From Chionoecetes opilio (lineage: Eukaryota > Arthropoda > Malacostraca > Decapoda > Majidae), in NCBI GenBank assembly GCA_016584305.1, contig JACEEZ010018517.1:1-64000 (forward strand): 64,000 nucleotides of DNA, read 5' to 3'. Position 1 is the first letter of the stretch. Every line of letters starts with the position of its first letter. The notes under the pieces are model-generated. The model searched no databases. It had not been told where the DNA came from and saw only the letters and a program-made list of their open reading frames with translations. The position numbers and the translations under genes were made by a program. Below, in pieces: positions 41,646 to 56,478 of this stretch.

Positions 41646-42163
41646 ATGGAAACAATGGAAACAAACATACTCATCAAATGCTCTCTACCTCCTACTGTTC
41701 TCTTCCATCTTCTTTCCATTACCTCTCCTCGTTATCCAATACTCATCTTCCTCTTTCTCTTCTATTGAATAATGTAGGCAATATAGGGTTAAACTTAATT
41801 CAAAGACTCACTTCAAAAGTTGTTTAGGCTTGGCAGGTGGCACATACAACAGACGCGAGGAACGACGTACAAGGGAGCTCATGAAATGTTTGAACTTCAC
41901 CCCTGCGAGTTGCGAGCAATATTTTTCAAAGAAGTCTGCCTCTTACCTGGAAAAATAACCCGTCAGCCTCCAACCGTGGAAACATTCAACAGCAAGTTGG
42001 GTGAAGCTTTGCACAGACACACCCGTGTTATCGCACCAAACATGTCCCCACGGTACAAATAACAGCAGCCATGATTCTCCCTTATATCATGGGCAGAGAA
42101 GAGAATATAGAGACAGTCAAAATGATAAACAAGATCACTAATAGAATACCATAACTTACCTCA
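41646..42163. other. Left flank of element G
   Basis: Single-copy-looking sequence. An 80-codon plus-strand frame (41820-42062, with TFNSKLGEALHRHTRV) is open but unrecognised. It ends in TCA (42161-42163), the left target duplication of element G. Confidence 0.4.
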
Positions 42164-42650
42164 TAGTCCGTCAGGTGATCCCCCATTTTTAGCCAACCGG
42201 TACACTCAAGATGGCAAAGACTCATTGGTATCATTGGAAAGCTAGGGTATTCAGGAACTCATTTTGCCCTGGTAGCAGTCTGGATTTAGCAGCTTCATAT
42301 TTTTATCGCCTATGAACAGACCACCTATGGCGAACAAATCCCGCCAAATGCGGTAAAACCTGTAAGGGGTACATTCATGTTAGGACTGCATGTCATGGTT
42401 CTACAGTGGTATGCCAAGTGCCATTTGTTTTTTTAGCTTTAAATATGTTCATTTAATGCCATTGTAGTAACAAGCTTGGTCAAATCAAAATATTTGTACT
42501 TTTGAGCCAAAATCTTATAATGCCGATAATATACGCATTGCTATATCTTTGCAATCAGATAAGTTATTGATATTTATAAGTATTGTTTTCATATTCAATA
42601 CCTCCATATTCAGACAGAGGGATCGTATGTAGCCATTATTAGTCAGCATA
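42164..42650 (+). repeat. Left terminal inverted repeat of element G
   Basis: Runs collinearly with the reverse complement of 55985-56475. Strongest blocks: ATTCAGGAACTCATTTTGCC (42250), TTTTTATCGCCTA, AAATGCGGTAAAACCTGTA (42345), GACTGCATGTCATG and GGTCAAATCAAAA. Similarity weakens inward but is still visible at about 42612-42645 (GGATCGTATG... versus GGAATCGAATG...). Confidence 0.85.
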
Positions 42651-42931
42651 TAATTATGACTGTATAGTATAGGTGACCATGGTGACACATATATACCAAA
42701 ATAAGATTGCAAAAACTGACTGTATTCTAGTCAGATCTCACGATAAGCTGAGTTGATATCTTGAATGCTTACAATTTATGAGGTTTGAATGAATGAACTA
42801 AACACCATCTTTTAGTTGAGTATTTAATTGTTTCATTGCACTAGACACTTCAATCTAGAAACAGTATTAAAATGTACAAACAGTCTACGTAATGTTCTCA
42901 GTAATTCTTGTCATTTGCTTTACTTATAGAG

Positions 42932-45153
42932 TTAATCAAAGTCAAGTTCTTTCATTTCAACATCATCGTCCATCATTTGTGGGTCATCGTCTTCATCATC
43001 CTGTGGCTGGTTGTCACAGTTCCTCAACTTACATAGTTCGGAGCCCTTCATGTTATTAACCATGCACGTACATTGTGGGAGGCGACATGACCTTGAACAG
43101 TTGCAGGCCAGGAGTTCCAATACAGAATCGGGTGCGGGAGCGCCATCCAGCCAGTCAATTTTCAATTCCTCTTTGCCATCTGTTATTTCAACTTTCCAAC
43201 CTCGACCTCTAGGTGATGGTACTTCTGGGTAAGCTTCCAGACTTCTTCGCCAAACACCAGCCTGGTAGTTGGCCCTACATGCATGTTTATGAAGGGCGTC
43301 TGCACATGGTGGAAGCTGTTGCGGTTCAACACAGCCTTTCTTACTGCTGAAAAGATGATACCGCAGTTAATTTACTTTACGAACGCTCGTTTCGGTTGCA
43401 TACATTTGACATGGAAATGCCTCCAACTTGATGAGAAGTGATTCTGAGACATCCCACATAGCTCCAAGATCTGCGAATGTGGACTGAAGCTCTGCGTCCT
43501 GCTTTAGCAGCTTGAGAGAAGCTATCTTTCTTGGGCCTGCAAGGGAGCTCACGCTGTCACATCCAGTGTATGCATGCATCCCAAGTAAAGCTTTGCATAC
43601 CGATGGTCCTAGTGTAGTGGACACTTTCTGTACATCTATGTAAGATACCCTGGCCAGAGTTCCACACATGAGATACAGGTGTGTATCTATGTCGTCACAG
43701 AATGCAAGTGCCAACAAAAACACATCTGTATCATCAGCTACAAGTACAACTGAATCAAATCCTGCACCTGCTGCATGTGCAGAGTGCAAGATAAGGCGGG
43801 TGTCTGCCTCCTCTTGTGTTGAACATAGTTCTGGTACAAGGACACAGCCTTCATCATGCATAATTTTGTAGCAGTTTTCCCCTCATGTGACATACACACT
43901 TTTGTTTCCGAGTCGTTCGGTGTACTTTGCTTGTTTCCATTCTTATATGAGAAAGTGAATGAAACTGGTCTTGTTTGGTGAAGCAGAAAGAAATTTTTGC
44001 CATTGTACAACCGTTTGTTTTGCAGTGATGTTTTTCAGCTGAATCACACCGACATTGGATCCTCGGATTTCTCTCTCAACATCCTTGATCGATTCTTCCT
44101 TGTACACATCGAAGACAATGTCAACACGGGATGCATGTGATGCCTCATTGAGAGCTTTCGCGAGAACCAGAGAGGCGATATCACCAGAGGTCTTGTGTTC
44201 ACCTTTCACTGTGTGTACCAAAGCCATCCCATCTATGAGACACGCAGAATGAGGCTGAATGTCTTCTGCAGGTCCTAAATTCTTCTTCAGTTCCTTTGCA
44301 AGAGATGACTTGCTGGTTTTCCTTGTTACACCATCGGCAGTGGCTAAAGCCCAAGGGAGAGGGGCCAAGTGGATGCTCCAAAACCTCACGCATATCGAGT
44401 TGTCGTGTCTGAGCCATCATCAGCATATTGCCAAATAAGGCAGTAGTCGTTCGTAGAATGAGTTCCTTGCCAGTTCCAGACTTTACATGCTTTTTCTTGT
44501 TTGCATCTATGAATGTATTTAACTTCAACTTGGGTAGCCGGTCATTAAATTTTCTGATGGGGGGATCAGTTTCAAGGCGTTCTGACTGGAATGTTTCATA
44601 GGCTGATTCACCACGAGCCCTTGCTGATGCCAAATTCTGTGCAATTTCAGTTCAAACTACAGTGGCATTGGAGATATTGAGCAGGTCTTTTGGATCACTG
44701 AATGAATTGACTAGGTCTTCGATGACCTCCACTATGGCAGATACGGCCTGCTCATCTTTAGTCACTCGTGACTTTTGCAGCTCGGCATGATGCTGGTTCC
44801 TATTCATTTGAAGGATTTCTCGTAAAAGTCTGACGTACCCACTTCTGTACTCTGCTGTCAGGTAGTAGCGTGTCACAGCACTCGTGTTCAGACTAAAACG
44901 GCAGGTGCCTCCTGGAGTGTTTGTGTCTTGTTAACTGTTTCCTCAATGGTTTGGTCAACAGGTATTCTCTAAATGTGTTGGTTGATCCAATTTGTACTGA
45001 AAATTTTCTTCCATGAATTGTTCGTGAATCTTAGGATGATTGTTGGACAACTGTGACATTTGGGATAGTATGCACTGAGATACCGGGCATAGTTTACTTT
45101 GTCATAAGCAAAGGCCCACGCGATGTACTCACGAATGCATGCCATATGTAATA
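42932..45153 (-). pseudogene. Element G gene, C-terminal part: FEN1/XPG-like nuclease and Cys-rich tail
   Basis: Minus strand. From right: LLHMACIREYIAWAFAYDKV (about 45153-45100), a frame change near 45010, then MTRYYLTAEYRSGYVRLL (44876), a stop near 44652, a frame change near 44355, and the nuclease in one frame from 44389 to 42932. Nuclease landmarks match the FEN1/XPG order: CLIDGMALVH (Asp at about 44233), IVFDVYKEESIKDVEREIR (Asp at about 44110), EEADTRLILH (43813-43784), VADDTDVFLLAL (43738-43703), and MHAYTGCDSVSSLAG with Asp at 43556-43558. The tail carries LLACNCSRSCRLPQCTC and CKLRNCDN, a likely zinc-binding CXC cluster, then an acidic end. In-frame stops lie near 43943, 43895 and 43367. 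FEN1-like enzymes cut branched DNA with metal ions; activity of the intact relative is inferred. Confidence 0.75.
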
Positions 45154-45320
45154 GGGTACGCCGTAGGTCCAATGAAAAATGAAATATAGATTATTTCGAA
45201 TTTGACAGGGTGTATTCTTATGTTAAATCGAATTTTAAGGGTAGTTTGTCCTCTTCAACTTTATGGTTTGAGCACTTCTTGCTTTGCAAAAATTGACTTT
45301 TATATTCATATGCAAAACAT
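45154..45320 (+). repeat. Left terminal inverted repeat of E1
   Basis: Begins GGGTACGCCGTAGGTCC. The same sequence, inverted, forms the outer end of E2 (54272 downward), which continues almost identically into the gene. Confidence 0.82.
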
Positions 45321-45370
45321 AGCTTAGGCCCGCTAAAGTAACGGCTTCACTTGCACCTATCATCAATTCT

Positions 45371-45388
45371 TGATCGTCTTTTTCAGGA
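45371..45388 (+). promoter_or_regulatory. Splice-acceptor-like site before the element E start codon
   Basis: TGATCGTCTTTTTCAG ends at 45386, one base before ATGGCTTCT at 45388. The same arrangement is kept in E2 (54038-54055). This suggests the transcript starts outside the visible coding exon and is spliced onto it. The donor is not identified. Confidence 0.5.
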
Positions 45389-46574
45389 TGGCTTCTCCTT
45401 GTAAACCAGGTGGGTCGAAGCCCGCAACTAGACAGAGCTCTGGATCCAAGTTGGCCGTCTTTGTTGGCGGTGGACGAGAGTTTACTGAGAGTGAGGTGCC
45501 TACGTATCGCGGCGTGATGAAGAGGGGAATCCTTCTCAAGAACTCAGCGGCATCCGGGAGGGTGTTGACAAGCGGGGGTACCCAGTGAGAGACATTGCGA
45601 AGGATCTGACCCCCATGGTGCTTGCCCAGTGGAAGAAATCAAACGCCCAGTTTGCACCTCCAGTGGTTGTTATTGACCGGTCCTTGAACAGAAGGATAGA
45701 TAATTTTTGGAAGAAGGTTAGTGAAGTGGTGATGAGAGACAGAGCAACTAAAGCAGTAAAGGAATTCGTGGAGAAGAATATGGACATGCTGTTTGACATA
45801 ACGGCCTGCCCTCACACGATCTTCCTCTGCAAGGACCAGGAATCCCACTGCTCCAACCCCCAGCTGTGCCACGCGAGAGCACACGTGCAGTGTGACTGCC
45901 CCCTGGCCAGCAAAGTCCTTACTTTAGACCTGGAGTGGCTGTACTACCAGAGGATCAAAGTTGGGGAAGAGAGTGCAATGATTATGACAGGGGTAGACAA
46001 GAATGAGACGCATAGAAAAGTGAAAGCAGCAAAGAGAAAGCAGTTGGAAGAGGAGACTAAGCTGAAGAAGCAGAAGCAGAAAGATGAAAAGGTCAGACGT
46101 CTTGAGCTGCAGGAGCAGATGTTCCTGGGCCAGGCTGAAGAAATCCAGGATTCTGAGGATGGGACGGAGGAGTCGTTCACCCTGCCACTCAGAGGAAAGA
46201 GGCAGGAGCAACAGGAGGCTGCCATACTGGTAGACCGACTTCTCAGGGCTGGGGTCCCTGGCACCCCTTGTGATGCAGTATTTGGACAGGCCAGCTGCAA
46301 GAAGAAACACAATGCCAGTCCGGAACCTGGCGCTGGCAAGCATTCGGTTCGACGTTCCGCCCACTGCTGCTGCTGCCTTGGCTTCTGGATTCCTCCAGGA
46401 CCTTATCGCTGACGGCCACCTCTCTCCAGATATGTCGTACCTGGTCTGCGATCCTAACAAGCTGAGGAGGGCCAGGCAGGATGCCATGGCATCGGCCAGG
46501 GACCTTGACCAGGGGAAGCACCAGGGTACCAAAATAGTTGGATTGGGTTACGATGGGAGGAAGGACAAGACCAG
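45388..46574 (+). pseudogene. Element E gene, N-terminal part (copy 1)
   Basis: Starts MASPCKPGGSKPATRQSS. Against E2, one C is missing near 45537 (a frameshift after MKRGILL) and five bases are missing near 46248 (after ILVDRLLR). Visible features: a Cys/His cluster, ACPHTIFLCKDQESHCSNP then CHARAHVQCDCPL (about 45800-45905), likely zinc binding; LDLEWLYYQRIKVGE; a lysine/glutamate coiled coil from KVKAAKRKQLEEETKLKK to about ELQEQM (46018-46120); and a conserved region with ALASIRFDVPPTAAAAL and PDMSYLVCDPNKLRRARQDA (about 46330-46490). Sequence identity to E2 stops at 46574. The product's function is unknown. By position it is the only candidate transposase of element E. Confidence 0.72.
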
Positions 46575-47017
46575 TAGTGGAGCGGCCAAGAGCCAAACAT
46601 TTTGCTTGACCCCTCCACACTTTAGAACAAGGCAAATTAGGTATCGTTGGATTCGTTAGGATGTCTACTTTGTGAAAAACGATGTTTTACAGTCAGATTC
46701 TAATTCAAACATTGCCATTTAACCCATTTCACCCAAACAAAATTGAGAATTTTTGACTATCTTAATTCTTTTATATTGGCACTTACAAAGATTGAAAACT
46801 TGGTAACATCACATTAATTCCTTTCTGCCAAGTATACTCTCACAATATATGGGGTTGAAACCCACGTTAATGGTGTTTTGGACCCCCAAATACCTTAAAA
46901 TTAGGGGTTTTACCCATTTTTTGGCCATTTTTTACTCGTACTTTGTCTTCAGTTATACAAAGAAACCCTTCCGCAAAACGTTACACTCATTGTTTCTCTA
47001 TCACTTTCTAATTGTGT

Positions 47018-47046
47018 ATGTTTTTTCCTTGCAAGTTGAAGAAAGT
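47018..47046 (+). promoter_or_regulatory. Splice-acceptor-like site before the G-prime start codon
   Basis: TATGTTTTTTCCTTGCAAG ends at 47035, eleven bases before the ATG at 47047. It parallels the acceptor-like site of element E. Confidence 0.4.
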
Positions 47047-50000
47047 ATGGAACCACCAGAAGAACCCACTCAGAAGAGGAGAAGAACGAGTCTTTGCGAA
47101 TGCTGCGTATTCTGCGAGACTTCATTATCCAAAACCAAAGCTGATAACCCAGTTGTCCAGAATCCTGGAGTCGAAGGATTGAAATCCATTCTGAAAGCTG
47201 CTGAGCTTCGTAAAGATGGTGTCTGTGATCGGCTGTTTCCAGTGAAAAACGACATCCTAAAAGGAGATACTGTTATCAAATTCCACCTAAAGTGCAGAGC
47301 AAATTATACGAACAAGAGGAATATCCAGATAGCCCTAAGAAACACGGTACATGTGCTGACGCTGACGATGGCGCAACAGGTAGTGGGCCTACGGTTGGAC
47401 TGTCTCGTCTCCGGCGATATGACACGTCGCAATTTGACATTCGATCAGGCTGTTTCATATGTGGGAAATCACATAGCTGGAAGGAGAAACTGTCGAACGT
47501 CTCAACTGGGACGGGGTCCACCACACGACAAAGACTGCTTGATGCAGCCATTCAGAGAAACGACTATGAGATTCAAATGCGAATGCTGTCAAACACTGCC
47601 TTGTTTGCAATGGATGCAAAATATCATCGCTCTTGCTATTCGCATTACATCTCGCTTACCAATATTAAAGCTGCTAGTGCTAGGACTAAGGTTGATAAAT
47701 CTGACAATGCGGTGCCTTCAAAAGTTTTGTGTAAGGAGATTGAAGAGACTGTCCTGTCCAAAACCATCTCTATCACAACCTTGTCTGTCCTGAATGAACG
47801 ATTGGTCGCTATATCAGCAGAGGTCAACTCTAAAACCATCGAGTCTTGTACTACATGGAGATTGAAGGAGAAATTACAGAAGAATTTCGGAGACAGGACT
47901 TCATTCATCGTCAGGCTGGGAAGTCTGATCTTGTATGCTCAGGGGATATTACAGTTGCCGAGGCCTTGAAACATGTTGTGAGGCTACAAGTGCATGTAAA
48001 TGAAATTGGTGAATGTGAACTCGAATCCTCTGATGATGTCAATTCAGAAGAGGACGCTGTGTCTTGCATAAGGCAGCTGGTATCATCAGGAAATGTATCG
48101 GTGACATTACATTTCAATCTGATCGTTATGATTCTAGTGGGAATATGGAGACAAAGAAGTGCAAGGACTTTGTTCCGAATCCTTTGTATGATTTCGTTGC
48201 ATGGTGTTTTTAAAAAAAAGATTTTGACAGCGCTACAAGCTATGAATCTGAGACTCACATGGGAAACTTTAAAAATGGAGTTCTTGAAAATATGTACAAC
48301 AGATTTCTCTAGTTGTAAAATCTTCCCCCAATAACACTTTGGTTTGGGGTTAAAGCTGCACCACGACCATGGTAGTCGAGAATAATAGATCCCTTTCCCT
48401 CTCTTGGACACAGCATCCTTATGAGAAGTGCGAGATTCCTCACTCCCATGCTTTGGCCCAGTGTCAACCAAGTCTGACGTTCATATCCCAGGTGACTTTT
48501 CTGTCTATGTCCTGAGAAGTTTTAAGACCCTTGGGGATCCGAAAAATTAACAATTTCGAAAAAATAACAGCTTTGACGGAAAAAAACCTCAATAATTCTG
48601 TGGGTTGTAAAGGGGTCCTCCCAAAAAACACCGCATTAAGATCAAAAAAAACCCCTAGATGACAAGCTTAAAGGGGGAAATCCGAAAAAAAATCCCCCTA
48701 AACCAGAACCTGTGTTAAATGGGAAAGTAAAAAACTGAAAAAGTCCTAAGGATTGGGGTCTAAAACTTGTTTGGGTGGGGGGGGTTTGGGGTTTTTTTGG
48801 TTTTTTTTTTTTGGGGGGGGGGGGTGGGGGGGGGGGGGGGGGGGGGGGGGGGGAAAATTTTGCTAAAATTTGGGTTGAATTGAAAAATGCAGGGGACAAG
48901 AAATGTTCTGGTCACGCTGCCCGGGGGAATATATAGAAAGGGCAAAAACATTTTCTCGGACTGAGCCAGTCCCTGGGGTCGAGTGCCCGTGAGGTTTGGT
49001 GGGAGCATCTCATTTGGTTTCTACCAGATGGGAAGTGTTTGGTGGTGGTCTCCAAAATGCTGACAGTACCTGAAATGTATGCTCATGCGTCCGTGAGTAG
49101 GGTTTTTTCAAGGGAAGCATTTCCCAGAGGTCTAAAAAGAATCAAAAGGTACACGAAGCACGTTTCACTTTTTTCTATCGCTGCCGAAACCTTTCAATGA
49201 AAAACAAGTTGCCCGGGTTGGATGATGAACCACGCACTTAATTGCAGATCTGGGAAAATCCCTTTTCAAAATGAACCCCCGGGAAAGCCTGCACTGTGTG
49301 GTCAGGAGTTTGAAATGCGTTTGTATTCTCTCTTTCAGTAAAATTAAAAATTTCAAAGACACAGGAAGAGAACAATCAGAAAATTTCCCTTTATGGATTA
49401 GTTTCTGGATGCTGGTGACACCCTCTGAAAAAGTTACTTTGGGCGACCTGGGGGGTGTTTGAAATGCACCTTACCCCGTCCTTGAAGTCATACGTACTTC
49501 TTCCTGGCAGGCCGCAGAAAACATGCACGATACCCCCGTCTATGTTGCGGAAATGCGTCATTGGAGGTGTCGGCTCCACGAAAAGTTTCAGCACGTCGGA
49601 AGGGGGTTTTGTTTGAAAAAGCTCAGAAAGGACTTTCAACTGCGTTTTACGAATCAGGGCCCCCGAACAGATATCAACGCGAGGGTAAAAGCCAAGGTGG
49701 CGTATGATTACATACTGCAAAAGGAGCCTTTGTTTGCTGGCTGCTGACCCCCCAATAAAACCCGGGGGGAACCAGAACGATTCAAAAATGTGTACACCTA
49801 CCAAATCCAAGAATACACATGAAGAACATGGGGCATGCTCGAGTGACCCAAAGGGCCAAATGATGTTTAAAACCAAAAAAATACATCAAGGAACAAGCCA
49901 ACATCCATTTTACCTGGGAAAATGTTGCAAAATCCCCAGTTAATAAATAGTGGTCAGGTGGCACAGAAGAAGCGAAGAGACGAGAAGGGAGTGCCACAAA

Positions 50001-51240
50001 AAGGGCGGGAAATGTTCAATCAGTTTAGAAAAAAAAGGCTTTGGGGGCGAAAGAAAAGGAATTTCTGGGGGTCCAATCCCATAGACATGTCAAAACGGTT
50101 TTTGCTTAAGAAGTGTCTTTTCCCGTGATAAGGGGAAGGGGAAAATAATGACGATACGGAGGGACTCTTCAAAGACTGTTGCAGTGTCAAAGAACCGTGA
50201 TGTGGATATGCGAAAGGTCCCTTACAATGGCAGCTGTTTCCCCCTTCAATGTTCCCCCGACGAGGTTCGTGAGGGGAAAACCAACAAAGCAGATCTTGCC
50301 AAAAAAACTGGAAGCAAATAAGGATGAAATTCTTGCCCTTTTTAGCAGAATTCCCCCACGTCTCGCAGTCTGCTGCATACCTCTTGGGCATGGCAATGTG
50401 TAGGCCCTGAAAGGAAACATTACAAACTTCAATGATCTTGGAAAGGGTTCGGGCCCAAATTGTGCGTCTTCTGAAAAAAAAGTGCCATGGTCCCTTCATT
50501 GACGTTGTGAGTTGGGCTTTTACCGGACACAAGAACATCAATTAGTCACGAACGACACAGACGGGAATGATGGATTCCCCCGGATTCAAAATACCCCGAT
50601 AAAGGGAACAGGGACTCCGAATCAGGGAAATTCCCCAAAAAACCCGTACCCAAAGGTATTTTATTTTATTCAACGTCAGTAATCTGCGACAATGGACAAG
50701 ATCTCCTGCCTGCAGATAAATTTTGGTAGTACTGGCAGGTGGATTTAAGATGGAAAGTGGGCAAAATTTGAATGAAGTGGGGTGTCCAGTCTTTAGGGGT
50801 TGTAAGCAAAAGAGGAGGGGGGACACGCGTCTGGTATTGATGCAATATGTTATCGAGAGACACCAAGGATAATATTTGGTGGACACACGGAGTCCTGTCT
50901 TGTTGGTGTATTTCTGGGGGAAAGGGGAGCACTGGCCGGGAAGTATATAGCTGGGGCACTAGGGAAATTTGTCTCAAAGGAAAAGATTATACCTGTTCAC
51001 CATATCAGTACCAAAAACGGCCAAAAGCCGCATGCAAATATTCCAAACCGGCATGCTCTGCGGATGTGACACGACAAATGCCTTACAAACTTGGAAACGA
51101 ACGGCATATTAGCTCTCCCAAAAATTTAGATACCCACAGGGGTGGAAGCTTTCCCGGATTTCCTACTTTTTCCCAGATACCGCAAAGGGGTTTGTCCTTC
51201 TCATGATGGTAAAAAAAAAAATAAAAAAACTCAGTTTATT
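47047..51240 (+). pseudogene. G-prime: divergent relative of the element G gene, with C2HC modules and FEN1-like remnants
   Basis: Starts MEPPEEPTQKRRRTSLCECC. The first module has CCVFCETSLSK and FHLKCRANY. A frame change near 47310 leads to a second module, CFICGKSHSWKEKLSNV ... MDAKYHRSCYSHYISL (47440-47655), which matches the layout of the element G N-terminus but keeps both Cys of CxxC. The frame changes again near 47880, giving DLVCSGDITVAEALKHVVRL, and then near 48100. From about 48340 the sequence is disturbed and only fragments read. Among them are GDTRLVLMQYVIERHQ (about 50820), LVDTRSPVLLVYFW (about 50876) and a later segment reading ALPK and THRG (about 51110-51150), which fit the nuclease region of the same family (compare EEADTRLILH in G). 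So it probably spanned a whole gene; the far end is uncertain. Confidence 0.6.
48774..48853. repeat. G-homopolymer-rich tract
   Basis: Several long G runs with T runs between them, including one of more than 20 G. It lies in disturbed sequence and may be a sequencing artefact. Confidence 0.7.
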
Positions 51241-51389
51241 TAATGAAAATTCTTTTGTACTCGCCCCCACAAGAAAGCCCCCACCTTTTCTGCCCCCAAC
51301 AGATGATGCCTTCGAAAAAAAATGTATTGCGGGCCCAATACCAAGTAGCAGTGTGGTGTCAGAGTCACATCGCAAAACCTGAGAACATG

Positions 51390-52215
51390 AGGAGTGCCAG
51401 ATGAAGATCTGGTGATACCGGAGTATATCCTGGTCAATATGTCCACTGACCAGCAGGTCTCCTATCAGCTGGTCCAGGCTGTGAAGCGGGGCGTTCTCCC
51501 GTCCGAGCTGCAGGAGATCAAGTGTGGCAAGGTGTCCCACTCCAGATGACTCACCACAGCCCAGTCGCTCGTGTACATGTGGACCGAAAGCATGGACTGA
51601 CTGGCAAAGAACTGAACACAATGGAAATCCTAGTCAAGTACTGCCTGCAGGTGTACTTCAAACTCTACTACGACATCAAGGTTCACCAGACTAGAGGACG
51701 GCCCCAAGCACATCCTCACGCAGCTCAGAGTGATGAGGTTGTAGCCCAAGAAGGTCCAAACAGCTGTGACCTTCTACGTGCGGACAGGAGCATGGTTCGC
51801 ACACTCAGAATGTGTCCTCCTCTCGCTGATGGCGAGTCAGAGTGAGGACGAACGCAGGTTCGCCGTGACCCAGATTTTGAAGCTGAGGGCTGGCGAGGAG
51901 TATGGGGACACCAGTGTAAGACCTCGCATCACACCCAAGCTAAACTTGTCAGCCACCAACTTGCAGACACTGATCAGCTGGCAGCCTGGCCAGGTGCACG
52001 AGCCGACATTCACCTGTTCACTGTCCGGGGATCAGATCCAGGAGATCCTGGTCAAGCCGTACGAAGTTCCGGAGTTCTCTATCCACACTCAGAGGACCGA
52101 AAGAGTCGTGAAGCAGGTGACAGAGGCTGCGGCAGCAGTGGTGGGCAGCAGGCCAGAGACGGGTTCATCCGGGATCGGGCCCACCACGGGAGACCATGCC
52201 CTGCTTCAGGTCTAA
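51390..52215 (+). pseudogene. Element E gene, C-terminal part (copy 1)
   Basis: Reads VPDEDLVIPEYILVNMSTDQ, then QAVKRGVLPSELQEIKCGK, KHGLTGKELNTMEILVKYCL and VYFKLYYDIKV, then, after a frame change near 51700, TFYVRTGAWFAHSECVLLSL, RRFAVTQILKLRAGEEYG, RPRITPKLNLSATNLQTLI and HTQRTERVVKQVTEAAAAVV, stopping at 52215. At least two frame changes (near 51540 and 51700) break it. It is taken as the end of the E gene because it lies upstream of the right inverted repeat on the same strand and, as I recall, these motifs belong to the same family of large uncharacterised invertebrate proteins as the N-terminal part. No nuclease motif is recognised. Confidence 0.6.
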
Positions 52216-52359
52216 GGACACGTGCTAGGCCAACGTAGAGGCTGTGACACTGTGATGTAGTGCCTGATGAACCAACTGATCAGAAAGAGCTTACCACGCT
52301 AGTCATTTGGAACTCATATTGGTGCATGATGCAATAAACAGGACCAACCGGACACTGCG

Positions 52360-52530
52360 TACTCATTTAAGCATTATTCGATAAGGGTGCAATATAAAAG
52401 TGCGATTTTGCATAGTAAGAATTGCTCAAATGCAAAAATGAAATTAGATAAAATCGTCTTAGAATTATTTTTCCATAGGAAATTGGCATGCCAAAGTTGA
52501 GAAAAAGAATTTTTGTTATACGGCGTACCG
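52360..52530 (+). repeat. Right terminal inverted repeat of E1
   Basis: Reverse complement starts CGGTACGCCGTATAAC. About 80-130 bases inward it matches the left repeat again (TTTGAGCA block and ACTTTTATATT). Confidence 0.78.
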
Positions 52531-52532
52531 TA

Positions 52533-52765
52533 ATCTACATTTCTGGTGAACGGGTTGGCCCGCAACACTTCAAGACCATCGATATCGACAGCACAAGTGT
52601 AATGAAAACAGCACTACAAAAAGACCTTGTGTGGTTTCTGGCCCGACAGATCGACCCCGCAAACCAACACATCATGGGATGGACAGGGTTCAATATCGTC
52701 ACTAGGAATGACATACAGCTCGCCCAGGACGTTGTTGGCTATCTACCTACCATTAATGAGCCTTC
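52533..52765 (+). pseudogene. Element G gene, middle fragment, inverted
   Basis: Plus-strand frame reading IYISGERVGPQHFKTIDIDS, then ALQKDLVWFLARQIDPANQH, MGWTGFNIVTRND and VVGYLPTINEP. It is the natural continuation of the N-terminal part, which ends in DVPLPI at 54279, but it lies on the opposite strand. It starts directly at the TA after the E1 right end and stops where E2 sequence begins (52766). The stretch of the G protein that should follow, up to LLHMACIRE at 45153, is absent from the window. Confidence 0.68.
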
Positions 52766-54038
52766 CAGATGGTTCCTCTGTCACTGACACATGCTCCTCC
52801 CTGATCAACCTTGGGTGCAGTTTCCCATAGCTGTCGGGCACCATCGCCCTGGTCTTGTCCTTCCTCCCATCGTAACCCAATCCAACTATTTTGGTACCCT
52901 GGTGCTTCCCCTGGTCAAGGTCACTGGCCGATGCCATGGCATCCTGCCTGGCCCTCCTCTGCTTGTTAGGATCGCAGACCAGGTACGACATGTCTGGAGA
53001 GAGGTGGCCGTCAGCGATAAGGTCCTGGAGGAATCCAGAAGCCAAGGCTGCAGCAGCAGTGGGCGGAACGTCGAACCGGATGCTTGCCAGCGCCAGGTTC
53101 CGGACTGGCATTGTGTTTCTTCTTGCAGCTGGCCTGTCCAAGTATTGCATCACAAGGGGTGCCAGGGACCCCAGCCTCTCCCTGAGCAGTCGGTCTACCA
53201 GTATGGCAGCCTCCTGTTGCTCCTGCCTCTTTCCTCTGAGTGGTAGGGTGAACGACTCCTCCGTCCCATCCTCAGAATCCTGGAGATCTTCAGCCTGGCC
53301 CAGGAACATCTGCTCCTGCAGCTCAAGACGTCTGACCTTTTCATCTTTCTGCTTCTGCTTCTTAAGCTTAGCCTCCTCTTCCAACTGCTTTCTCTTTGCT
53401 GCTTTCACTTGTCTATGCGTCTCATTCTTGTCTACCCCTGTCATAATCATTGCACTCTCCTCCCCAACTTTGATCCTCTGGTAGTACAGCCACTCCAGGT
53501 CTAAAGTAGGGACTTTGCTGGCCAGGGGGCAGTCACACTGCATGTGTGCTCTCGCGTGGCACAGCTGGGGGTTGGAGCAGTGGGATTCCTGGTCCTTGCA
53601 GAGGAAGATCGTGTGAGGGCAGGCCGTTATGTCAAACAGCCTTTCCATATTCTTCTCCACGAATTCCTTCATTGCTTTAGTTGCTCTGTCTCTCATCACT
53701 TCACTAACCTTCTTCCAAAAATTATCTATCCTTCTGTTCAAGGACCTGTCAATAACAACCACTGGAGGTGCAAACTAGCCGTTTGATTTCCTCCACTGGG
53801 CAAGCACCATGGGGGTCAGATCCTTCGCAATGTCTCTCACTGGGTACCCCCGCTTGTCAACACCCTCCCGGATGCCGCTGAGTTCTTGGAGAAGGATTCC
53901 CCTCTTCATCACGCCGCGATACGTAGGCACCTCACTCTCAGCAAACTCTCGTCCACCGCCAACAAAGGCGGCCAATTTGGATGCAGAGCTCTGTCTAGTT
54001 GCGGGCTTCGACCCACCTGGTTTACAAAGAGAAGCCAT
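52766..54038 (-). pseudogene. Element E gene, N-terminal part (copy 2)
   Basis: Best-preserved copy of the E protein start. One frame runs from ATG at 54038 (MASLCKPGGSKPATRQSS) to the cut at 52766, with a single stop (TAG at 53775-53777, where E1 has a Gln codon). It has the same Cys/His cluster (ACPHTIFLCKDQESHCSNP, CHARAHMQCDCPL), the LDLEWLYYQRIKVGE motif, the charged coiled coil, RERLGSLAPLVMQYLDRPAA, and, beyond the point where E1 is interrupted, RAMVPDSYGKLHPRLIREEH followed by VSVTEEPSGR. Downstream residues before the next stop (52743) are foreign. No catalytic motif is recognised in this part. Confidence 0.75.
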
Positions 54039-54272
54039 CCTGAAAAAGACGATCAAGAATTGATGATAGGTGCAAATGAAGCCGTTACTTTAGCGGGGCT
54101 AAGCTATGTTTTGCACATAAATATAAAAGTCCATTTTTGCATCGCAAGAAGTGCTCAAACGAAAAAGTTGAAGCCGCCAAACTACCCTTAAAATTCAATT
54201 TTACATAAGAAAACACCCTGCCAAATTCGAAATATTCTATATTTCACTTTTCATTGGACCTACGGCGTACCC
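52766..54272 (-). mobile_element. Element E, copy 2, 5' part only, inverted relative to E1
   Basis: Outer end at 54272 reads, on the minus strand, GGGTACGCCGTAGGTCC, with TA outside (54273-54274). It is nearly identical to E1 for about 1.4 kb. It lacks the C-terminal part of the gene and the second inverted repeat, being cut at 52766 against the inverted middle fragment of G. Confidence 0.82.
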
Positions 54273-54278
54273 TATTTT

Positions 54279-55846
54279 TTAGATTGGTAATGGAACATCT
54301 GAGATAGTTAAGCTTCTCTTCTTTGCGTTCGCAATATCGGTTTGTTGAGGCTTCAGTGGCTGTGGTCCAAATACCCTTGGTTGGACTGCAATACCATTCA
54401 CTCTATGTGAGGTGCCCTCTCCAGTCAGTGTTTCTTCAAGTCTATCAATGTTATCCCAGGCCAGTGTAGTATTGACATGGGCTTTGATAGTTTCTGGCAG
54501 GACAACATCATCATCAGTTGCAGCAAGTTTTCCAAGGCATAGTGCCGTCGCATTCTCCTCAATGACGGTGTATGACACATCATGTCCTAAGCGATTCAAC
54601 ATCTGAATAATCTCGACGTTTCCAGTCAAAGCCTTAACGCCGCAGGGTAACAGGATGTGCTTTGGTGGAACTTGCGACCCACTACTCACAGCGTAGACTA
54701 GGTCCTGGGAAAAGGAGTCAACGAGCATCATGGTACGCTGTGATGGGTTCTTAGGTGTCATATCTCCACAAAGTAGTCCATACAAGAACTGCCTTACAGA
54801 TTATGTTGCAGTGGTGGTAGGCTCATTCATTGCTGAAGGTAAAAATGGCCATTGCTTTGTATGCTCTTAGGACTTGATAGCAGATCTCAGATGTGAAGCC
54901 GTCTTGTTTATTACAGATGTAATTTCAGATAACAAAATCTGTGCTGACTCAAGTTCTTTCTTTAGTTGATGGCTCTCTTTGGCTAAATCGTATATCGTCA
55001 GAGTATATGGGAAGACCAATATCTTTCCTTTATCATCAGGACACATATGGAGTGTATCGTTGAACTCCGCTTCCAGCTTTCTCCGTATGTGTTTCCTTGT
55101 CGAGTCCCTCACAGCAGTTATTCCTTCAGAATGCATGTACGTTGATAGCAGATAAGCAAGATAAGTCAATGTGACAACCTATGGATATTGAAACAGCTCT
55201 TGCCTGATATACTGGAAAAGATGCAAGTAGGCTCCTGTTTCAGCAATCTTGTATTTAGCATCAGGGTCATCATTTGCATCATCTTTGGTATGGTCAATGA
55301 TGGCATCTTTCACACTGGTATACGATCGGTAACAAGATCTATGATACCATGCTTCAGCAGCAACTATGTTTCTTGATGTGACAGCGAGGATGTGCTCATC
55401 TTGTCTCTTTGTTGCTATATCTCGTAAAGTATTATCTGCTCTCAACTCAGTACACTGTGTTAACTTCTCTCTTGTGTTCGTGCCTTTGATATACTTGGAT
55501 CGTCCAGGTGGCCAGAATATACATGTTTTCTCCAATACTCTTGAACTGCTTGAAGGTAGTCTTCTAAATGTTCTTCGCTTAGTAGCAACTTCACCTTCAG
55601 TAGTCATTTCAAGTTTATCCAAGTCCGTTTCATCGTGAACAGTTTACGGCACTGGAGATGATACGGAATCTGTGGCAGTTCTCCCTCTCTCAGGTTTTCT
55701 ACAACTGTCAAGATAGCTTGATGCTGCCTGAGTCTGGCTGCCCTTAGTAGTGTGTTCCAGGAGTCGAGATCCCGAGGTGATGTAAGGCCAGCGTGAGGAT
55801 CTTCATCAGTTGTGTGGATAATACAAACAGGAATTGTCTCATCCAT
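54279..55846 (-). pseudogene. Element G gene, N-terminal part: Cys/His modules and conserved domain
   Basis: Starts MDETIPVCIIHTTDEDPHAG (55846), continuing PRDLDSWNTLLRAARLRQHQ and YHLQCRKLFTMKR. A frame change near 55620 leads into one frame that runs to 54279. It contains a degenerate second zinc module (CIFW where a CxxC is expected, then WYHRSCYRSY), a linker with coiled-coil character (HQLKKELESAQILL, about 54970) and a well-conserved block: PPKHILLPCGVKALTGNVEI, MLNRLGHDVSYTVIEENATA, LAWDNIDRLEETLTGEGTSH and RVNGIAVQP. Stops interrupt it at 55179, 54867 and near 54800. It ends at TAA just before the TA next to E2. The start is chosen as the first Met giving the conserved N-terminal module. 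Confidence 0.72.
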
Positions 55847-55984
55847 GGCCGATTAGCTTTTCATTCACAAGTGTTACATGCAGAGATAAGAGATTAACTT
55901 AAGAACACTTGCAATTATTGGCAATTAGCTGATATTTTTTCTAAACATATTATATGCTGCTGTTGATTTGCTACAAAATTCAAA

Positions 55985-56475
55985 ATATTATGGAAGGATC
56001 AATAGTGGCTGCATTCGATTCCTTGTATCTGAAAATGTATACCAAAATATTATATTTATGTCATTATTACGTATGGCTGCTAAAATATGACGATAAGTCG
56101 ATTTTCAATATTTATCTGGTGGCCATCCTGGATTTTGGCTCAAAAAGTACAAAATCTTTTGATTTGACCAATCTTGTTGCTACAATGGCTTTATATGAAC
56201 ATAATTAAAGCTAAAAAAGAAAAATGCACTTGGCATACCATGTAGAATCATGACATGCAGTTGTAACATACATGTACCCCGTACAGGTTTTACCGCATTT
56301 GGCACGATTTGTTTGCTGATAGGTGGTCTGTTCATTAGGCGATAAAAATATGAAAGCTGCTAAATTCAGACTGCTACCAGGGCAAAATGAGTTCCTGAAT
56401 AATATACCTTTCAAATGATACCAATGAGCCCTTGCCATCTTTTTGGTACCGACAGCCCCTATACCTGACGGACTA
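55985..56475 (-). repeat. Right terminal inverted repeat of element G
   Basis: Counterpart of 42164-42650, ending CCTGACGGACTA at 56475, followed by the TCA target copy. Four blocks of about 20 bases match exactly or nearly so in inverted order. Confidence 0.85.
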
Positions 56476-56478
56476 TCA

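Follow-up and report, generated by a model that had tools for sequence, protein, structure and literature searches.

The window analysed here is a stretch of 64,000 nucleotides of Chionoecetes opilio (GenBank assembly GCA_016584305.1, contig JACEEZ010018517.1, positions 1 to 64,000 of the forward strand), from a genome of 1.94 Gb. It contains a unit at 42164-56475 that we regard, with a probability of about 0.88, as a damaged copy of a family of cut-and-paste DNA transposons, most probably belonging to the AcademX lineage (Academ superfamily). Members of full length measure ∼5.6-6.1 kb and encode one intronless protein of ∼1,550 residues, in which an N-terminal Cys/His module is followed by a predicted DDE transposase, a predicted FEN1/XPG-type nuclease with its complete set of acidic residues, and a CXC zinc tail. 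A preliminary description of the unit, made from the sequence alone, had taken the nuclease for its only enzyme, but sister copies and 58 long homologues carry a predicted DDE core. The window copy seemed to lack a transposase because its DDE part has been lost, the nuclease being simply a portion that is well preserved. A single broken copy can imitate a new mechanism.

Ends, target duplications and gene copies in the genome

The unit carries TAGTCCGTCAGGT at both termini in inverted orientation and is flanked on each side by TCA (42161..42163 and 56476..56478); its boundaries, 42164 and 56475, had been placed exactly. The terminal inverted repeats, each starting with TAGTCCGTCAGGT, extend over 42164..42514 (plus strand) and 56131..56475 (minus strand). 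They had been put at ∼480 bp and measure ∼350 bp, comprising 13 identical bases at the tip, then ∼30 bp of divergent sequence and then ∼310 bp at ∼88-89% identity. In genome searches with either end, 40 places were scored (the window among them) from 206 first-look candidates, with identities of 95-100% for the left end and 94-100% for the right, and the inverted ends are therefore far beyond chance. A 99% identical copy of the left side of the window, with the same flank, occurs on C4884 (L002/L025) and probably represents this locus in the other haplotype.

The family of the window unit, termed family A, was sampled in 21 copies, namely 20 loci from the end searches and the window itself. 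Three of these (L023, L025 and L027) lack one recognised end, and L025 occupies the same insertion site as the window. An exact 3-bp duplication was found in 14 of the 18 family A copies with both ends recognised. When the comparison was shifted by -4, -3, -2 and -1 bp, matches were observed in 0, 0, 1 and 2 of the 18, respectively, and shifts of +1 to +4 bp gave none. When copies of related families were counted as well, 18 of 22 copies with both ends recognised showed an exact 3-bp duplication and none a 4-bp duplication. In this count, L061, L066 and L067 have no recognised end pair, L064 repeats the L062 site, and L065, found later, was kept apart; one further copy with a 3-bp duplication was found outside the 22. 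The length of the duplication first seen at the window thus recurs in other copies, but its TCA sequence is not constant. TCA as a fixed target was ruled out, as TGT, ATA, TAT, TAC, CTT, TAA, TTA, AAT, TGA, GCG and CAG were also seen.

Ten of the 18 family A copies are 2.3-3.9 kb long, although the lengths are no fair sample, because 16 of the 20 regions were picked for having both ends listed on one contig. These short copies are internal-deletion forms with differing breakpoints, which retain pieces of the same gene. Two copies, L021 (6,058 bp) and L012 (6,453 bp), are near full length and contain the whole gene, intronless and interrupted by frame changes.

Comparison of the window nuclease module with the genome gave 6,623 first-look candidates, of which 150 were scored, and all of these matched. 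Linkage to the ends was analysed at the 30 best of the 150 scored places with ∼1.5 kb on each side, a sample that includes the window and its near-identical C4884 counterpart. An element end lay within the fetched stretch at 22 of the 30 loci, mostly at the same distance, which favours mobility. Among the eight misses, L046 and L051, which correspond to L012 and L028, show both ends in longer sequence, and at L042, L054, L056 and L058 the end searches list a family A end on the same contig, no more than ∼4 kb away; L032 and L035 showed no end. The earlier view of the unit as a DNA transposon with real ends is borne out by the copies of the ends, the 3-bp duplications and this linkage, and the number of candidates and scored matches agrees with mobility as an explanation for the abundance of such "uncharacterised" proteins. 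The superfamily may constitute a noticeable share of the genome.

More distantly related gene families of this genome carry 3-bp duplications and ends of their own, of the TAGTC/TAGGC type. Family B (module ∼60% identical) has the ends TAGTCCGTCAGC and the duplications ata/ata and cag/cag. The joined flanks of its copy L060, with the duplication kept once, matched 40 of 40 scored places (from 1,717 candidates) over 356 of 356 nt, at 98-99% identity and with no net length change. By this comparison of sequences, L060 lies within an older repeat, which in its unoccupied form has one copy of the 3 bp. Family C (module ∼48% identical; 5,607 bp) has the ends TAGTCCATGAGCC and the duplications gcg/gcg and taa/taa. 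Two of its copies, L062 and L063, occupy different sites, are 99.6% identical and have intact ends, and L062 contains a single open frame of 1,553 codons; these features indicate that family C moved recently. Family D (module ∼47% identical) was seen in one copy, with ttg/ttg and the ends TAGGCGATCAGC and TAGTCGGTCAGC, while only the left end was seen in family E (L067; module ∼46% identical). In a FastTree phylogeny of 70 proteins, five of them from the host, families A and B clustered with protein P0001, and families C, D and E fell in other clades together with database homologues. Several separate lineages therefore coexist in this genome.

The encoded protein and the broken gene of the window copy

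The search for homologues found 168 proteins, of which 120 were listed; the named sources among the latter were amphioxus, corals, an anemone, molluscs and a fish. The conservation tables were based on the 58 listed homologues of more than 1,450 residues, whose named sources were amphioxus and corals only. Conservation in these 58 proteins extends to the CxxC and HxxC residues of the N-terminal part, to the acids of the nuclease and to the CXC tail, some columns having one or two gaps. All nine tabulated nuclease acids are conserved in 58 of 58, as strictly as the predicted DDE triad of D466, D630 and E885; D1122, D1289 and D1291 are among the acids of the nuclease.

Folds were predicted from alignments of 58 and 60 rows of the 120 listed homologues. 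The transposase core has a predicted RNase H fold, interrupted ahead of the last acid by a long helical insertion, and the check for a hidden fold of this kind proved positive at the level of prediction. The best structural match of the core was the P element transposase, with Hermes (hAT) lower, at 7-11% identity in the structural alignments. The nuclease module of a homologue has a FEN1/XPG-like predicted fold, in agreement with its earlier assignment. No Pfam model reached the cut-off in scans of the window frames, of the frames of L012 and L021 and of six homologues, and sequence searches of the PDB were uninformative. With Foldseek alone, neither the whole nor the core model had a match at E ≤ 0.001; the top rows were Rat1/Xrn1/FEN-type nucleases for the whole model (best E 0.038) and RAG1 for the core model (best E 0.24).

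In the window, the gene is broken. Its 5' part (54280..55846, minus strand; P0001 residues 1-∼524) comprises the Cys/His module and the first catalytic Asp, D466, which falls near 54453-54455. A fragment corresponding to residues ∼524-600 was detected by blastn with L021 and by tblastn in inverted orientation (52532..52762, plus strand), inside a nested insertion. The 3' part, located by tblastn (42935..45151, minus strand; residues ∼815-1554), contains stops and frameshifts. Within it, the FEN1/XPG-like nuclease module (43367..44266, minus strand; ∼residues 1111-1410) was assigned from its conserved acids and the predicted fold of the homologue, and is accompanied by the CXC (Tesmin/TSO1-like) tail (42992..43126, minus strand). 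The C-terminal acidic motifs and CXC tail, as well as the Cys/His module of the N-terminal part, were all present as first described.

When P0001 and L021 were compared with the window, residues ∼601-814, including D630 and the remaining core, were found to be missing from the window copy, and a 9.1-kb insertion, designated X, occupies their place. Since the core is lost and the residual gene contains stops and frameshifts, the window copy is, judging by its sequence, dead as a source of transposase. Interpretation of the broken frames as exons was ruled out, the gene being uninterrupted in sister copies and in L062.

Insertion X (45152..54279, no strand assigned) is nested and rearranged. It has inverted ends of its own, ATAGGGTACGCCGTAG, at its two outer edges, and inverted arms of 1.4 kb (45150-46574 and 52849-54276). 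It holds a different gene, on both strands, and the unit therefore does not enclose a single gene family, as had been proposed. The structure of X suggests that a second transposon inserted here and was then rearranged by inversion or gap repair. An additional similar end was observed near 52519, together with an apparent target repeat, AATCTA. The gene in the arms (52746-53774 and 45495-46409) has uncharacterised proteins as its matches; Chionoecetes opilio is the source of many of those with a named origin, with 61-100% identity to the proteins of this species over parts. A further region inside X (47098-47657, plus strand) shows similarity to homologue P0115 over the N-terminal 180 residues of the latter (E 6e-6), and X, or something within it, may carry a related Cys/His module.

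Proposed roles of the two catalytic sites and alternative readings

In the mechanism proposed for this family, the Cys/His and CXC zinc modules would bind DNA, and the DDE site would cleave at the element ends and join the 3' ends to target positions staggered by 3 bp. The nuclease would act on the other strand or on flap intermediates, trimming or cutting them either in the course of excision or once joining has taken place. The shorter, internally deleted copies may arise through incomplete gap repair and be mobilised in trans. Conservation of the nine nuclease acids in all 58 homologues argues for a need for nuclease activity, without indicating the step at which it acts. A more specific proposal, in which the DDE site cuts only the joined strand and the FEN1/XPG site on the same chain cuts or trims the other, so that excision would proceed free of hairpins, is at present rather doubtful.

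Two points weigh against the reading preferred here. The mean pairwise identity among the 58 homologues is 47% for the nuclease module versus 61-72% for pieces of the DDE core, and AcademX could be compared by description only, in terms of duplication length and the word "nuclease" in the parts of the literature available. The first point would suit a scheme in which the DDE domain performs all cutting and joining and the nuclease is dispensable for movement, serving for example in the processing of host repair intermediates. The P element, hAT and Transib elements indeed move without such a nuclease. This scheme is possible, if unlikely, as it is at odds with the conservation of the nuclease acids, which equals that of the triad in strictness.

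The second point would allow a DDE superfamily separate from Academ, which resembles AcademX merely by its nuclease and 3-bp duplication. This is improbable, given that the DDE type, the nuclease and the duplication length match the AcademX description as far as the published passages go, and that the curated Academ elements of a bivalve survey have a mean length of 5,565 bp (PMC10294476), compared with 5,607 and 6,058 bp here. By these tests, the transposon is an ordinary DDE element and represents a new family of AcademX-like type. Movement driven solely by the FEN1/XPG nuclease, with no DDE, tyrosine or HUH chemistry, would fit the window copy, where the nuclease is the only recognisable enzyme and no Pfam model reached the cut-off, but it is hardly credible in view of the predicted DDE core that this copy has lost and that sister copies and the 58 full-length homologues have, and of the inverted ends and short duplications of fixed length, which usually mark DDE joining.

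Comparison with known systems

In the published passages available, Academ is listed as a superfamily (PMC4455052) and among the superfamilies with a DDD/E transposase (PMC9587614). AcademX makes duplications of 3 or 4 bp and AcademH of 9 or 10 bp, a difference tied to the encoded nuclease or helicase (PMC10045372, 2023). The passages seen of PMC3627910, PMC5753468, PMC9783078 and PMC10799480 mention Academ and give no layout of an XPG-containing protein. The literature search found no paper joining Academ with XPG, nor one on FEN1, PIN, XPG or TSO1 with a DNA transposon. The AcademX nuclease is XPG-like, although the passages found do not say so. The unusual part here, the fusion of a flap-type nuclease to the transposase, has already been reported in outline, as a nuclease in AcademX (PMC10045372).

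The family described here has a DDE/D transposase (by predicted fold and conserved triad), an element-encoded nuclease and a 3-bp duplication. It shares with AcademX, as described in part, the DDE superfamily, a nuclease in the element, a duplication of 3-4 bp, a length of several kb and occurrence in animals (PMC9587614, PMC10045372, PMC10294476). It differs in having its own ends, TAGTCCGTCAGGT, and is likened to AcademX by described features, not by sequence. AcademH belongs, as published, to the same superfamily, but has a helicase and a 9-10 bp duplication in place of the nuclease and 3 bp found here. When the frames of L012 and L021 and six homologues were scanned with Pfam, no helicase match was detected, and the duplication was of 3 bp in 18 of 22 copies. 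The P element and hAT transposases likewise have an RNase H core in which a long helical insertion precedes the last acid, but show 7-11% identity to the present core in structural alignments. They make 8-bp duplications, in contrast to the 3 bp observed here, and have no fused nuclease.

This reading explains as transposases a group of proteins of amphioxus, corals, an anemone, molluscs and a fish that were left without a name or annotated as "uncharacterised", "hypothetical" or "Tesmin/TSO1-like CXC", and assigns them catalytic residues and a predicted fold, no Pfam model having reached the cut-off. The recently moved relative L062, with its open frame of 1,553 codons, could offer a system for studying a fused flap nuclease in DNA transposition. 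By analogy, Tn7 also uses two different nucleases for the two strands at each end; its TnsA and TnsB are separate proteins, in contrast to the single chain here, and TnsA has a restriction-enzyme fold, not that of XPG. If the division of strands between the two sites were true, the chain would represent, in eukaryotes, a counterpart of the TnsA/TnsB split that evolved independently, and the exchange of nuclease for helicase between AcademX and AcademH would help to set the length of the duplication.
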